From Rhodospirillaceae bacterium (GTDB lineage Bacteria; Pseudomonadota; Alphaproteobacteria; UBA828), in the NCBI GenBank assembly GCA_002717225.1, contig PBDG01000074.1:1-40683 (forward strand): a DNA stretch of 40,683 nt, given 5' to 3'. Below are positions 13,827 to 40,683 of this stretch, piece by piece. The translations under genes were made by a program, and so were the position numbers. Within the stretch, counting starts at the first letter, position 1; the number at the start of each line of letters is the position of its first letter. The notes under the pieces were generated by a model, which did not search any database, had not been told where the DNA came from, and saw nothing but the letters and a program-made list of their open reading frames with translations.

Positions 13827-16286
13827 ATGATCTTCCACAGACGCCGCCAATACTTCCCTGATTGTCCCACTGTTCCGTGGCGAATCGTATGTGTCGTGAT
13901 GATTGCGCTTGTTGCCATGTTGGGAACATCTGCGTCAAGTGCCCACGCCGAGAACGGTGAGGTGGCAATCAATGCTGGAGCATTCTTCCCAACCACGATT
14001 GATGGAAACGAAGATCTCGGCTTTTCAGTGACCGATGACCGAAACATCCGCCTGTGGAGCGCATGGCAAGCATTAGGAGGTCAACAAACACTAGGCGCCC
14101 CTCTTTCTCGTCGATTCATCATGGACGGACTGGTTTCTCAAGTCTTTGAACGAGGCGTTCTGCGGTGGCATCCCCACGGATCGGCCTCCATCGCCAACGC
14201 CTTCGACGACCTGGCAGCTCGTGGGCACAACCCGCTCCTGCTCAACCAGTTCGGGGTGCCGCAGTCAGCTAACTGGGCCGAGGATGACGGGGACGATTGG
14301 CCAGGCATCCAGACTCGCCACATGGCCTTACTCACAGGCTCAGAACCATGGCGCATGGCCTTACGAACGGCGTATCGCGCAGCCAACGGACCTCTGGATA
14401 GTGAGGCCGCCGCAATCAACCTCTATGGCCTGCCTATGGCGGTTGAGCCAACGACTGCCGGGTACGTACTCCGTGCTCAACGAGCCGCCTGGGTCATTGA
14501 CCCCGACCACTCGTCTGTCGCGGTCCCTATTGATCTCGCCACGGTGCTGACCACAACAGGATCGATCCCGAGCTTCGCCAGAGTTCCTCACCGGGCCGAC
14601 GAACGACCGCACCTACCGCCCCGAACACCAACAAGCGCAGTCCACTTTTTCGACTGGTGGCGCGATGCGAACCTCCCATCCGAATTTTTTACCCACAGCC
14701 TCAACTGGGACCGTATCGGTATTCATCCGTCGCAAATCGGAACGCCTGCGTATTACGACGCTAACTTCCGACTCATTCGTGACCTTGGCGTGGACGGTGT
14801 GTTTTGGGAATGGTACGAGGGGGCAAACCTCAAGCCCACGACGACAATTATCAACTCGCTGCGTCGTCACGGCCTCAAAATAGGACTGTTTTATGACTGG
14901 GAATTGTTGCACGCCGGGGGGCAGGCGGTGCTCAGCGACCGCGCCTATATCGCCGCCAACGAAGCCAGTCTCAGCAAGATCGTCGACGAAACGATTGCGT
15001 TCTACTCGGATATTCCACGCGACCTGTGGCTGACTGATGCTGAGGGACGGCTGCCAGTCGCGGTCTACGCCTACGGATTCCCACAACGCATGACCGACAT
15101 CGCGTCATGGACCTGGTTTTTCACCGAACTCCCGCGAAGGGTTGAAGCGGCGCTGTCCGCCGATGTGATTTTTGACTGGTCCGTCGCCTACCTGCCGCCA
15201 TCCCAGGTTCAAGAATTTGCGTTCGAGCGATGGCCCGAAACGTATGCACCTTTCAACTTTGTTGTCGACCTGCCCCAATCGCAGTTTGGACACCACATCG
15301 TCACCTGGAATTACATTTTCGATAACCGAGGCGTCGCTGCCCGAGATGGATTGCCACGTGTAATTCGCGATGACAATCGCTATCTTCAAGAAACGGATTG
15401 GCTGGCTCGCCATACGCAGCCAAGTTTGATCTTCATCTACAGTTGGAATGAGTTCTGGGAAGGGTCTCACCTTTTCCCTGACGATACCTATGAGTGGCGA
15501 CGATACAACCTGGCCCAAGCCCAGCTGAAAGCACTGAGAAGCTCCGTTGTGGACGATCTTCCACGAACCGTAGTGATTACAGACTCCGCGGTGGCATTTC
15601 CCGACGGAACCAATGGACTCCTTGAAAACCAGCGCACGCTTGTCCGTAACTTTCTACGTCGCTACGTACCCCAAGCAAATTTGATTACCGCAAATCAAGT
15701 CACGATGGCTACTCTCGAAAAAACCGACATGATCGTCAGTCTCACGACCGACCGTCGTGTTGATGCGCTTTTTCAACAATTGCCCGCACGAATACAGATC
15801 GTCTATTGGAACGCCAACGACCTGACAACCGAATTTGCTCGACGTTTTGTACAGGAAGTGGATGCAGAACGACCTCTGGGCCGGTTTGAGGTTCAAGATT
15901 CGAAAGATCAGGCCACTGGGCACTCGATGTTTGCCGAGGGCGACGTGTGGCTCGTCACCCCGAATCCCGACGCCATCGCCAATCTTTACTTTGATGTCAA
16001 TGGGACCAGCTATCCGCTAATCATAAAGTCCGACAACGATCAGTGGATCAACATCTACGGCCCAACCGAAATCGCCCTCCAAACCGCGTTTGAGACGGTG
16101 TACGGGCGAGCGCTTGAACCCGCAATCACGTTCGCACTGGGTGGAAATATCCAACGTCTGGAAGTGTATCCAGATGGCCGTGTGATCCAGAACACATTCA
16201 GTGCGCCGTCCGTATTCCGACATGAGCCGCTGGCCATTCCCACGTTCGAACCCGCAACACCTGCCGATCTTCCAACCACTCGGTGA
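13827..16286 (+). CDS. Secreted GH99-like/glycosyl hydrolase-type protein with LGFP-like N-terminal segment and uncharacterised C-terminal domain
   Basis: N-terminal hydrophobic signal (IVCVVMIALVAMLGTSASSAHA), WSAWQALGGQQTLGAPLS, IYSWNEFWEGSHLFPDDTY motif. Confidence 0.7.
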   Translation: MIFHRRRQYFPDCPTVPWRIVCVVMIALVAMLGTSASSAHAENGEVAINAGAFFPTTIDGNEDLGFSVTDDRNIRLWSAWQALGGQQTLGAPLSRRFIMDGLVSQVFERGVLRWHPHGSASIANAFDDLAARGHNPLLLNQFGVPQSANWAEDDGDDWPGIQTRHMALLTGSEPWRMALRTAYRAANGPLDSEAAAINLYGLPMAVEPTTAGYVLRAQRAAWVIDPDHSSVAVPIDLATVLTTTGSIPSFARVPHRADERPHLPPRTPTSAVHFFDWWRDANLPSEFFTHSLNWDRIGIHPSQIGTPAYYDANFRLIRDLGVDGVFWEWYEGANLKPTTTIINSLRRHGLKIGLFYDWELLHAGGQAVLSDRAYIAANEASLSKIVDETIAFYSDIPRDLWLTDAEGRLPVAVYAYGFPQRMTDIASWTWFFTELPRRVEAALSADVIFDWSVAYLPPSQVQEFAFERWPETYAPFNFVVDLPQSQFGHHIVTWNYIFDNRGVAARDGLPRVIRDDNRYLQETDWLARHTQPSLIFIYSWNEFWEGSHLFPDDTYEWRRYNLAQAQLKALRSSVVDDLPRTVVITDSAVAFPDGTNGLLENQRTLVRNFLRRYVPQANLITANQVTMATLEKTDMIVSLTTDRRVDALFQQLPARIQIVYWNANDLTTEFARRFVQEVDAERPLGRFEVQDSKDQATGHSMFAEGDVWLVTPNPDAIANLYFDVNGTSYPLIIKSDNDQWINIYGPTEIALQTAFETVYGRALEPAITFALGGNIQRLEVYPDGRVIQNTFSAPSVFRHEPLAIPTFEPATPADLPTTR

Positions 16287-36883: not shown

Positions 36884-39800
36884 ATGAACGTATCTCATGG
36901 TCATCGTCGAGTAAGCACGCTTACCTGTGCAATTACGATCGCCGTCGCGCTATTGGTGGGATGCGGATCGGAGGCCGAACCCGAGCCGTCAGCAACCCCA
37001 TCGCGAACCGAGGTCGCGGCCGCAGAGGTGCCCAAGTCGCCACCACCAATACCCACACCCACTGCCACCGAAAAAATCGCCCCGACGGCAAAAACTCCCA
37101 CGCAAACAACTGTGACTCCAGCTACCACGGCCGCACCAAAAATCACACCCACGGCCGTGCCAACACCAGAACCAACCCCACTACCGGCGTCTGAGGCCGA
37201 TGTCTTAGCAGGCACGATTGAGGTGCAAAGAGGAGGCAATGGCCAGTGGCAGCCAGTCGAGAGTGGGGTCATGCTGTGGCCCGGAGACGCAATTCGGACA
37301 AGTCCTGACGGCCAAGCCGGACTGTCCTTTGCGGACGGATCAGAGGTTGTTCTGCAGGGCTCTACCACTTTGATGCTCGATCGTTTCTTCTTGCGCACGC
37401 AGGCCGAGCAAGTTATCGAACGGTTCGGAAGAATGGTGCTTTTCGCTGGAAGCTTGGCCTTTAACGTAAAACCCTTCCCTAACGTGCCTTCTCCCTGGGA
37501 ATTCGTCACGGGTTCTGAAATTATTGGAATCACTGGAACCTCCGGTGTCATGGCCGTCGGCCAAAAAGACTCCATGGCCGACCTGCCAGAGAATGTCCGG
37601 AAATTGATTGCGGCTGGCGACGGACAAGCAGCTCTAGCTGCAGCCAAGGCAGCCGGCTTAGAAATTCCCGCTGGCGTCGAAGCGGCCCTCGCCCGTGGCG
37701 ATCAAGCGGGAGCTGCCGCGGCTGCAGGAGCCGCCAACCAAAAACTCGAGACGAAACGCGACCTGCCAGCAGGAATGCAAGCAGCGCTGGACTCCCAAGA
37801 CTTTGCCGGAGCCGAGGCAATTGCTCGGGCGGCTAACTTTGAGATCCCTGCTGAGTTACAGGCAGCAATAAGCCAAGGACGGTCGGGAAAACAAGGTGCT
37901 CAGGCCGCTGGCGATCGACCTGAAGTCCCAGCAGCAGTGCAGGCTGCTCTTGATGCCGGAGACTTCGAAGCAGTCCAAGCCGCAGTTTCAGCGACTGGGT
38001 TTACCCCTCCAGCTGATCTTCAAAAGGCTATTGACGACGGTCGTGGCGCAGTAGCGCAAGGTCGCCAGCAGGGACAGGACCAACCTGAGCTCCCGGCTGC
38101 GGTCAAAGCTGCACTTGAAGCTGGCGATCTGAATGGAGCCAAGCAAGCGGCATCGAACGCCGGATTCACACTCCCAGCAGAAATCCAAGCGTCAATTGAA
38201 CAAAACGCGTCAGCCCAACGGGCCGCCGGCGTCGCTGCAGAGCCGATGCCGGCAGCAGTCAAAGCAGCTCTAGACGCCGGGGATGTGGCAGCCGCCCAAA
38301 ACGCGGCTGCGGCAGCCGGGTACACCATGCCGCCAGATGTGCAAGGAGCTGTTGATAAAGGCTTCGAAGCCCGAAAAGTTATTGACGCTCAGATAGAAGA
38401 TGGCGCTCTTAAGGTTAAGCCCGAGCTACCGGCTGATATTCAAGCGGCTCTAGACTCAGGCAACGTAAGCCTCGCGCGAGATCTCGCCGGGAAATCAGGC
38501 GCTTCACTTCCACCGAATTTCTCAGAGGCTCTCGACGCAGCGGACAACGCCCGGACCAAGGCAGCAAGCAGTTCGGTCGCTTCCGATACCACGAGCCACG
38601 AATTGACCTTTGCACTTGTTGAAGGTTCGGCGGTGCTTACAGAAATAGTGGCAGCCAAGCCCGGCACAGCCGCCGACGGCAACGCCGAAGATGCGGCAGC
38701 TGGCATTCGAGTGGCTGAAGTTCCAGCCGGTGTCAGCCTTGTACTCCCCACCTTAAAACCCCCCGACAAGCTTGACGCAGTAATCGCAACCATCGCTGCT
38801 GACGGTCAGGGACAGGATGCAGTAGCTGAAGTCGCCGAAAGTTCCGACGCCGCTGCTTCCGACGGAAAAGCTGCCGACAAATTGAAGGGGATCGTCGCCC
38901 GTGACAGTGACGGAGACGGTGCAGTCGATCAGTTCGCCGTGTCATTTGATCAAAAGAGCAATCAAGCTAGCTCCGGTACAGATGGAGCTGCCGTCGACGT
39001 AGAGAAAGCACCCGCAAACACAGCACCTGGCGAACAGAAACTTCCACCAACCGCCTGGGGAGTGCTAGGCGCTGCAACAGTCGCTGCACAGCAGGCATTG
39101 CCCCCAGCCAACGGCGAACCAACAACCAATACTGATGGCGCTCCGTTGGCTGCCGCTGACGGAGCCCCGACCACGGATGCCGAAGGCGCCCCGGTAGCCG
39201 CAGGTCAATTACTTGAACAGGTGAAGCTCGCCAACATGGTCCGAATGGTGATCTCCGATGAGGGCGCCAGAAAAGAACTAGTCGCATCAGGAAACATGGA
39301 ACGCTCGCTCCAAACAGCGCTAGTCAACATCAGCGAAAAGGACACTTCACGATCCTCCCTAAGCCTAATGGCTCGAGCCGGAGGGTTTCAGGTTGAGTCC
39401 AAGCCATCCACAAGAGACGGTCAGCCAGGTCAGAGTGGTGAAGCGGCCCCACCAGGTAATGAGGTGGCTTTCTCGGTTCCAAAACTTGATATGGGCACCC
39501 CTCCACCGACCGACGCCAAGAATACTGACGAGAAAGGCCCTGGTGCACCTCGTGACATCAAACTGTTCACTGCCCCACTGCCCCCCGCAGAAGCTGAGGG
39601 CCAACCCCCACGTCCAGAAGCTGAGGGCCAACCCCCACGTCCAGAAGCTGAGGGCCAACCCCCACGTCCAGATGGTGAAGGCCAACCCCCACGTCCAGAT
39701 GGTGAAGGCCAACCCCCACGTCCAGGTGGCGAGGGCCAACCCCCGCGTCCAGGTGGCGAGGGCCAACCCCCGCGTCCAGATGGTGAGGGCCAACCCCCGC

Positions 39801-40683
39801 GTCCAGGTGGCGAGGGCCAACCCCCGCGTCCAGATGGTGAGGGCCAACCCCCGCGTCCAGATGGCGAGGGCCAACCCCCAAACGCCCCCGGGGTGTCCGC
39901 TGAAGAAGCTGCCTCTAAACAGGGGCAGCCAATGCTCCAACAATGGCTACGCTCACTAAAGACTAAGGAACCTATGCAGGTACGGCACGCCACTGCCGAC
40001 CAGCTAACGGCAGTGGTAGGAGGCGATCTCCCACCTGAAGCTGATGGTGGCCCTCCACCTGAAAGCGACGGAAAAGGTCCTCCTCCCGCATTCGGATTTA
40101 CCGTGCGAAACGCTTCAAAGGCTGTCACCGACGTCTTGCTTCCCCCACCAGGTGGTGAGGGCCAACAACCGCCGCCAGGTGGCGAGGGCCAGCCCCCACG
40201 ACCAGATGGCGAGGGCCAGCCCCCACGACCAGGTGGTGAGGGCCAGCCCCCACGACCAGGTGGTGAGGGCCAACAACCGCCGCCAGGTGGCGAGGGCCAG
40301 CCCCCACGACCAGATGGCGAGGGCCAGCCCCCGCGTCCAGGTGGTGAGGGCCAGCCCCCGCGTCCAGGTGGTGAGGGCCAACCCCCACGTCCAGATGGCG
40401 AGGGCCAACAACCGCCGCCAGGTGGCGAAGGCCAAAGCCAGTTAACTGCCTTTAATGCATTATTCCGTCGGCTCGACGAACAGCGGGCTGAGCGCCTGCC
40501 GCCACTAGATAACCAGAACCAACCTCCGCCGCCAGGTGGCGAGGGCCAACCTCCGCCGCCAGGTGGTGAGGGCCAACAACCGCCGCCAGGTGGTGAGGGC
40601 CAACAACCGCCGCCAGGTGGCGAAGGCCAGCCCCCACGACCAGATGGCGAGGGCCAGCCCCCACGACCAGGTGGTGAGGGCCA
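36884..40683 (+). CDS. Partial giant mosaic lipoprotein: lipobox, PT-rich linker, FecR-like domain, Ala-rich repeats, Pro/Gly nonapeptide arrays; no stop within the window
   Basis: Continuous open frame from ATG 36884 to the window end; lipobox LLVG-C (Cys codon 36962-36964); missing from the ORF track because it lacks a stop in the window. Confidence 0.88.
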   Translation, partial: MNVSHGHRRVSTLTCAITIAVALLVGCGSEAEPEPSATPSRTEVAAAEVPKSPPPIPTPTATEKIAPTAKTPTQTTVTPATTAAPKITPTAVPTPEPTPLPASEADVLAGTIEVQRGGNGQWQPVESGVMLWPGDAIRTSPDGQAGLSFADGSEVVLQGSTTLMLDRFFLRTQAEQVIERFGRMVLFAGSLAFNVKPFPNVPSPWEFVTGSEIIGITGTSGVMAVGQKDSMADLPENVRKLIAAGDGQAALAAAKAAGLEIPAGVEAALARGDQAGAAAAAGAANQKLETKRDLPAGMQAALDSQDFAGAEAIARAANFEIPAELQAAISQGRSGKQGAQAAGDRPEVPAAVQAALDAGDFEAVQAAVSATGFTPPADLQKAIDDGRGAVAQGRQQGQDQPELPAAVKAALEAGDLNGAKQAASNAGFTLPAEIQASIEQNASAQRAAGVAAEPMPAAVKAALDAGDVAAAQNAAAAAGYTMPPDVQGAVDKGFEARKVIDAQIEDGALKVKPELPADIQAALDSGNVSLARDLAGKSGASLPPNFSEALDAADNARTKAASSSVASDTTSHELTFALVEGSAVLTEIVAAKPGTAADGNAEDAAAGIRVAEVPAGVSLVLPTLKPPDKLDAVIATIAADGQGQDAVAEVAESSDAAASDGKAADKLKGIVARDSDGDGAVDQFAVSFDQKSNQASSGTDGAAVDVEKAPANTAPGEQKLPPTAWGVLGAATVAAQQALPPANGEPTTNTDGAPLAAADGAPTTDAEGAPVAAGQLLEQVKLANMVRMVISDEGARKELVASGNMERSLQTALVNISEKDTSRSSLSLMARAGGFQVESKPSTRDGQPGQSGEAAPPGNEVAFSVPKLDMGTPPPTDAKNTDEKGPGAPRDIKLFTAPLPPAEAEGQPPRPEAEGQPPRPEAEGQPPRPDGEGQPPRPDGEGQPPRPGGEGQPPRPGGEGQPPRPDGEGQPPRPGGEGQPPRPDGEGQPPRPDGEGQPPNAPGVSAEEAASKQGQPMLQQWLRSLKTKEPMQVRHATADQLTAVVGGDLPPEADGGPPPESDGKGPPPAFGFTVRNASKAVTDVLLPPPGGEGQQPPPGGEGQPPRPDGEGQPPRPGGEGQPPRPGGEGQQPPPGGEGQPPRPDGEGQPPRPGGEGQPPRPGGEGQPPRPDGEGQQPPPGGEGQSQLTAFNALFRRLDEQRAERLPPLDNQNQPPPPGGEGQPPPPGGEGQQPPPGGEGQQPPPGGEGQPPRPDGEGQPPRPGGEG
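37202..37558 (+). other. FecR-like domain within the 36884 CDS
   Basis: VLAGTIEVQRGGNGQWQPVESGVMLWPGDAIRTSPDGQAGLSFADGSEVVLQGSTTLML…GSEIIGITGTSGVMAV. Confidence 0.75.
37583..38566 (+). repeat. Six diverged tandem protein repeats of 52-60 aa (each roughly two ~27-aa halves)
   Basis: Units start at 37583, 37763, 37925, 38090, 38246, 38426; consensus xPAxVQAALDAGDxxxAxxAAxxAGFxxPAxxQAAIxxG. Confidence 0.8.
39590..39886 (+). repeat. 27-bp minisatellite block 1, 11 units, encoding (EA/DG/GG)EGQPPRP
   Basis: Exact 27-nt spacing from 39590 to 39860; in frame with the 36884 CDS. Confidence 0.95.
40151..40438 (+). repeat. 27-bp minisatellite block 2, 10 full units plus a partial one
   Basis: Units at 40151 to 40421 every 27 nt; QQPPP and QPPRP variants alternate. 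Confidence 0.95.
40508..40683 (+). repeat. 27-bp minisatellite block 3, degenerate first unit then 5 full units and a partial one cut by the window edge
   Basis: Units at 40508 (DNQNQPPPP), 40535, 40562, 40589, 40616, 40643, 40670. Confidence 0.93.

Follow-up and report, generated by a model that had tools for sequence, protein, structure and literature searches.

A long FecR-domain lipoprotein with alanine-rich repeats and nonapeptide arrays, a candidate surface stalk or scaffold of a Chloroflexota bacterium

FecR domains are usually read as parts of iron regulation. FecR-type sigma-factor regulators are recognised by an N-terminal cytoplasmic anti-sigma region with a transmembrane helix and by partner genes for a sigma factor and a TonB-dependent receptor. 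A different setting is given by Lsa33 (LIC11834) of Leptospira, a putative FecR-domain lipoprotein that is reported to bind laminin and plasminogen (PMC3444417). The gene described here encodes a protein that shares the FecR domain PF04773 with these proteins and lies at the end of a 40,683-bp contig (G000:C60), the whole of which is referred to below as the window.

The gene is an open frame on the forward strand (36884-40681) of 1266 codons from an ATG, preceded at a distance of 5 nt by AGGAG. It is truncated by the contig end within the third of its repeat arrays, and the contig therefore encodes the first 1,266 residues, with the C-terminus and the downstream genes located beyond the contig end. 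The claim of the first-pass annotation that a frame of at least 1266 codons runs to the window edge was confirmed, as no stop codon occurs. Its remark that the gene had been missed by the ORF track is correct for the default list, but is explained merely by the open 3' end, since ORFs running off the contig end are unlisted by default, while a listing with open ends includes this frame. A gene caller that requires a stop codon skips a repeat-rich gene cut in this way. Judged by the codon usage of the other genes of the window, the gene frame is the best of the three forward frames in every segment tested. Inside the arrays the fit of the reverse frames is not clearly poorer, so that the coding case there depends on the start codon region and on a forward frame that is nowhere interrupted. 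The features of the product and the adjacent upstream gene are listed in Table 1.

Table 1. Positions of the gene's features and of the neighbouring lipobox gene in the window.
Feature	Positions	Strand	Residues	Basis or remark
Lipobox protein, 460 aa	35295..36677	+		same strand, upstream; Ala-Pro-Thr repeat linker, HEYIH motif
Signal peptide with lipobox LLVG|C	36884..36964	+	1-27	lipidation site C27; read directly
Pro/Thr-rich linker	36965..37189	+	28-102	composition, 25% P
FecR domain	37190..37567	+	103-228	PF04773 and wider FecR profile
Six Ala-rich repeats, 51-60 aa each	37583..38581	+	234-566	self-alignment, alignment A3, AF2
Unmatched region	38582..39577	+	567-898	no family match
DSDGDGAVD loop	38903-38929	+	674-682	within unmatched region
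Nonapeptide array 1	39578..39883	+	899-1000	27-bp repeat, TRF; UBA6622 agrees to 39752
Unique segment U1	39884..40138	+	1001-1085	
Nonapeptide array 2	40139..40435	+	1086-1184	TRF, unit list
Unique segment U2	40436..40510	+	1185-1209	
Nonapeptide array 3, cut by contig end	40511..40681	+	1210-1266	TRF, unit list

The assignment of the contig to a host had to be revised. The bin in which it is found carries an rpoB of alphaproteobacterial type with 88% identity to same-genus genomes, whereas the LeuRS encoded in the window, even over its best-matching part, shows only 43-50% identity to the LeuRS of genomes related to the bin. The contig is 100% identical to contig DJHK01000017.1 of Chloroflexi bacterium UBA6622 over a stretch of 10,869 bp that ends at window position 39752 and comprises 8 kb 5' of the gene and its initial 2.9 kb. 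This identity, together with a divergent LeuRS in an alphaproteobacterial bin, marks the contig as a mis-binned Chloroflexota contaminant, and by these sequence comparisons the host is an uncultured Chloroflexota bacterium of the same species as UBA6622. The complete identity suggests the same population, perhaps even the same sample, and because of this possible shared sample UBA6622 confirms the gene by another assembly, whose reads need not be independent. As the bin belongs to another phylum, looking for relatives only in its surroundings would miss the right ones. Searches of the bin's family and order with the protein gave no relative.

All N-terminal features named in the first-pass annotation were recovered. 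The lipobox LLVGC occupies residues 23-27, of which LVGC (residues 24-27, read by eye) agrees with the lipoprotein pattern [LVI][ASTVI][GAS]C, and C27 is the only cysteine after position 15. The Pro/Thr-rich linker follows directly, and similar lipoprotein linkers are present in genomes of the class of UBA6622. For the FecR domain, PF04773 scores 20.4 bits with the whole protein, which is under the cut-off of 24, and 24.5 bits with the domain cut out, which is over it; with a broader FecR profile, derived from ten retrieved FecR proteins, the score is 72 bits. The Pfam scan of the protein gave no match besides FecR. A FecR domain split by the Ala-rich repeats was considered and found no support, as joining the residues up to 227 with those from 570 onward raised the score from 24.5 to 25.9 bits only, and other arbitrary join points scored equally well or better.

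The six Ala-rich repeats and the DxDxDGxxD loop had likewise been read correctly. The best self-alignment of the repeats scores 134 at spacings of 52-60, compared with a mean of 36.6 (sd 7.5) and a maximum of 70 in 300 shuffles subjected to the same test. The first-pass annotation had proposed structure prediction of the segment between the FecR domain and the arrays. For residues 95-701, AF2 without an alignment performed poorly (mean pLDDT 48.6), but in its model three-helix units recur in the Ala-rich region with a pLDDT of about 55-80, and a single unit modelled with the other five as alignment again forms three helices (mean pLDDT 74.5). A structure search of the PDB with both models yielded no meaningful match (best E 0.07 and 3.2), sequence searches found no known match for the repeat fold, and no ORF in any of the fetched loci matched a profile of the six repeats. 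Degenerate DGAP/EGAP copies, few in number, are also present in the adjoining unmatched region.

The arrays are 27-bp tandem repeats with TRF scores of 446 and 403. Three arrays of EGQPPRP(D/G)G had been claimed; their number is correct, but array 3 consists mostly of EGQQPPPGG/EGQPPPPGG. The 25 strict units comprise nine EGQPPRPDG, eight EGQPPRPGG, five EGQQPPPGG, two EGQPPRPEA and one EGQPPPPGG, and are encoded by 15 DNA versions. Pairwise differences between units fall at codon position 3 in 871 cases, at position 2 in 414 and never at position 1, and 587 of the 1019 codon differences between unit pairs are silent. Such variation fits a translated repeat that would be maintained at the protein level, with the restriction that recently duplicated units are not independent. 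The encoded arrays are hydrophilic, rich in proline and glycine and free of aromatic residues. Both the contig's own assembly and UBA6622 were scanned for the rest of the gene, and the array occurs on no other contig of either.

In the class to which UBA6622 belongs, a FecR domain is present in 32 of the 41 genomes. Most of the proteins carrying it are about 410-500 aa long, and about a dozen frames reach 700-1215 aa; the long ones that were read combine FecR with extended Pro/Thr-rich or other low-complexity stretches and varied other parts. The apparent isolation of the gene thus does not hold for its FecR domain, which is common in the host class and in several cases located on Pro/Thr-rich proteins of 700-1215 residues. 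It is closest to class proteins, with 32.7 bits for L081 and 26.8 bits for its own paralogue, an ordinary second FecR protein of UBA6622 (L144, 430 aa) of a type found across the class. Many class genomes contain a FecR protein of 413-441 aa with an N-terminal transmembrane segment and a conserved C-terminal domain (L104-L146). When the whole protein was used as query against the 41 class genomes, matches outside UBA6622 lay mainly over the Pro/Thr linker or the FecR domain and no whole-protein orthologue was found. UBA6622 was the sole match in a scan of GTDB, and viral contigs and plasmid collections gave none. For the Ala-rich repeats and array segments no relative was detectable in Pfam, NCBIfam, PHROGs, the PDB, the 41 class genomes or the GTDB scan, and a literature search on FecR-domain proteins in Chloroflexi returned no paper combining both terms. 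The full domain combination, which the first-pass annotation did not recognise, was found nowhere else in these searches, and the combination of Ala-rich repeats with arrays appears to be lineage-specific.

On the same strand just upstream of the gene lie a transglutaminase-like gene, a methyltransferase gene and the lipobox gene of Table 1, which is possibly co-expressed with the FecR gene. The product of the latter is zinc-peptidase-like in its HEYIH motif and matches Peptidase_M61 weakly (15.7 bits against a cut-off of 22), with no Pfam family over its cut-off and no NCBIfam match. Other genes of the window have housekeeping functions (PNPase, DapB, DapA, Asd, RNase J, FtsK, LeuRS and an E1/E2 dehydrogenase complex) or are related to sugars. 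An 819-aa secreted-looking protein without a Pfam or NCBIfam match is encoded at 13827-16286 (+), adjoining genes for an oxidoreductase and an MFS transporter. Among the window genes scanned, which represent the gene's upstream side, there is neither an ECF sigma factor nor a TonB-dependent receptor, and the earlier statement that no sigma factor, transmembrane anti-sigma region or TonB receptor is nearby holds for the window.

The commonness of FecR in the class and its long Pro/Thr-rich carriers indicate that the FecR part is an ordinary stand-alone extracytoplasmic module for this class, as far as sequence comparison can tell. From the architecture we consider it rather probable that the product is an extracellular scaffold, or a stalk resembling an adhesin, that is anchored in the membrane and spans the wall. 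The adhesion reported for the FecR-domain lipoprotein Lsa33 speaks for this reading, although the match to the Lsa33 model is weak. In such a protein the lipid at C27 would hold the chain on the outer face of the membrane, the Pro/Thr linker would span the wall, and the FecR domain would be a small beta module close to it, followed by the Ala-rich repeats as a row of small three-helix modules. The disordered arrays would act as long flexible spacers, bearing outward a C-terminal part encoded beyond the contig end. The arrays probably grow and shrink through 27-bp duplications, and the length of the protein may consequently differ between strains. That the Ala-rich repeats represent a new three-helix family and, with expandable EGQPPRPDG arrays and a C-terminal domain, make up a new kind of wall-spanning and possibly length-variable surface protein in this Chloroflexota lineage is a doubtful proposition. 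Neither a sorting signal nor a known adhesive domain was seen in the protein, and for the Ala-rich repeats and unique segments there is no relative from which a function could be borrowed. A structural, adhesive or scaffold role on the surface, as proposed in the first-pass annotation, is nevertheless still the best reading of a gene that has proved less isolated than it seemed, whereas a role as sigma-factor regulator found no support.

A regulator of the latter kind that had acquired further domains and relayed iron or some other cue through the membrane would account for the FecR domain, which is genuine. It is highly improbable, as a lipobox stands in place of the cytoplasmic anti-sigma region and transmembrane helix and the upstream side of the window lacks the partner genes. 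In addition, Chloroflexota are generally regarded as monoderm, which argues against it as well. Another reading, which we consider rather unlikely, makes the product a stand-alone envelope protein that binds wall glycans, sugars or ions through its FecR domain and repeats and whose arrays form a hydrated, matrix-like brush and no tip-bearing stalk. The hydrophilic, aromatic-free composition of the arrays suits this explanation, as do the class-wide proteins that couple FecR with other extracellular segments and the single DxDxDGxxD loop, which could bind calcium, but Pfam detects no carbohydrate-binding or matrix domain.

The arrays might also have arisen during assembly, through collapse, expansion or chimerism of repeats, so that the real protein would end or differ soon after array 1. 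Two assemblies break within arrays, that of UBA6622 within array 1, and only one assembly shows arrays 2 and 3. We regard an artefact as improbable, however, because the frame stays open across all arrays and both unique segments, the differences between units are mainly silent, and the second assembly is concordant up to 39752. In the bin's own family, a 576-aa FecR frame with a short-period EGPEGEFGP array (L050, minus strand) is cut at a contig edge, an assembly break of the same kind.

The FecR domain of the protein is of a kind frequent among its relatives, and no relative is known for the remainder.

Compared with the FecR-type sigma-factor regulators, the protein is lipid-anchored, its N-terminus carries neither anti-sigma region nor transmembrane helix, and its FecR domain precedes about 1,040 residues made up of unrelated repeats. 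Lsa33 is likewise a putative lipoprotein with a FecR domain, but it is far shorter, and repeats or arrays are not among the features reported for it in the part of the publication consulted (PMC3444417). The NCBIfam model of Lsa33 (NF047849, 310 aa) matches residues 110-195 only and, at 15.7 bits, stays far under its cut-off of 420, which places the protein outside that family. The alphaproteobacterial FecR-RTX giants (L039-L045) resemble it in their great length and FecR domain; they come from the bin's organism and its relatives, no lipobox was seen in them, and their C-terminal repeats are of the glycine/aspartate RTX type. They were rejected as relatives, being alphaproteobacterial and unrelated beyond the FecR domain. 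In that family, FecR occurs on RTX-type proteins of about 870-2020 aa (L039-L045, L007), three of them in tandem in L043. A further comparison is with the large FecR proteins of the host class (L134-L140, L145; 719-1215 aa). Those read seem to start with a transmembrane or signal segment, with no lipobox, and differ in their C-terminal parts; they contain neither the Ala-rich repeats, by profile search, nor EGQPPRPDG arrays, by reading. Like the present protein, they carry FecR on an extracytoplasmic protein with mostly Pro/Thr-rich low-complexity stretches, and in this Chloroflexota class FecR is thus widely used as a stand-alone extracytoplasmic module, in some cases on very long proteins.
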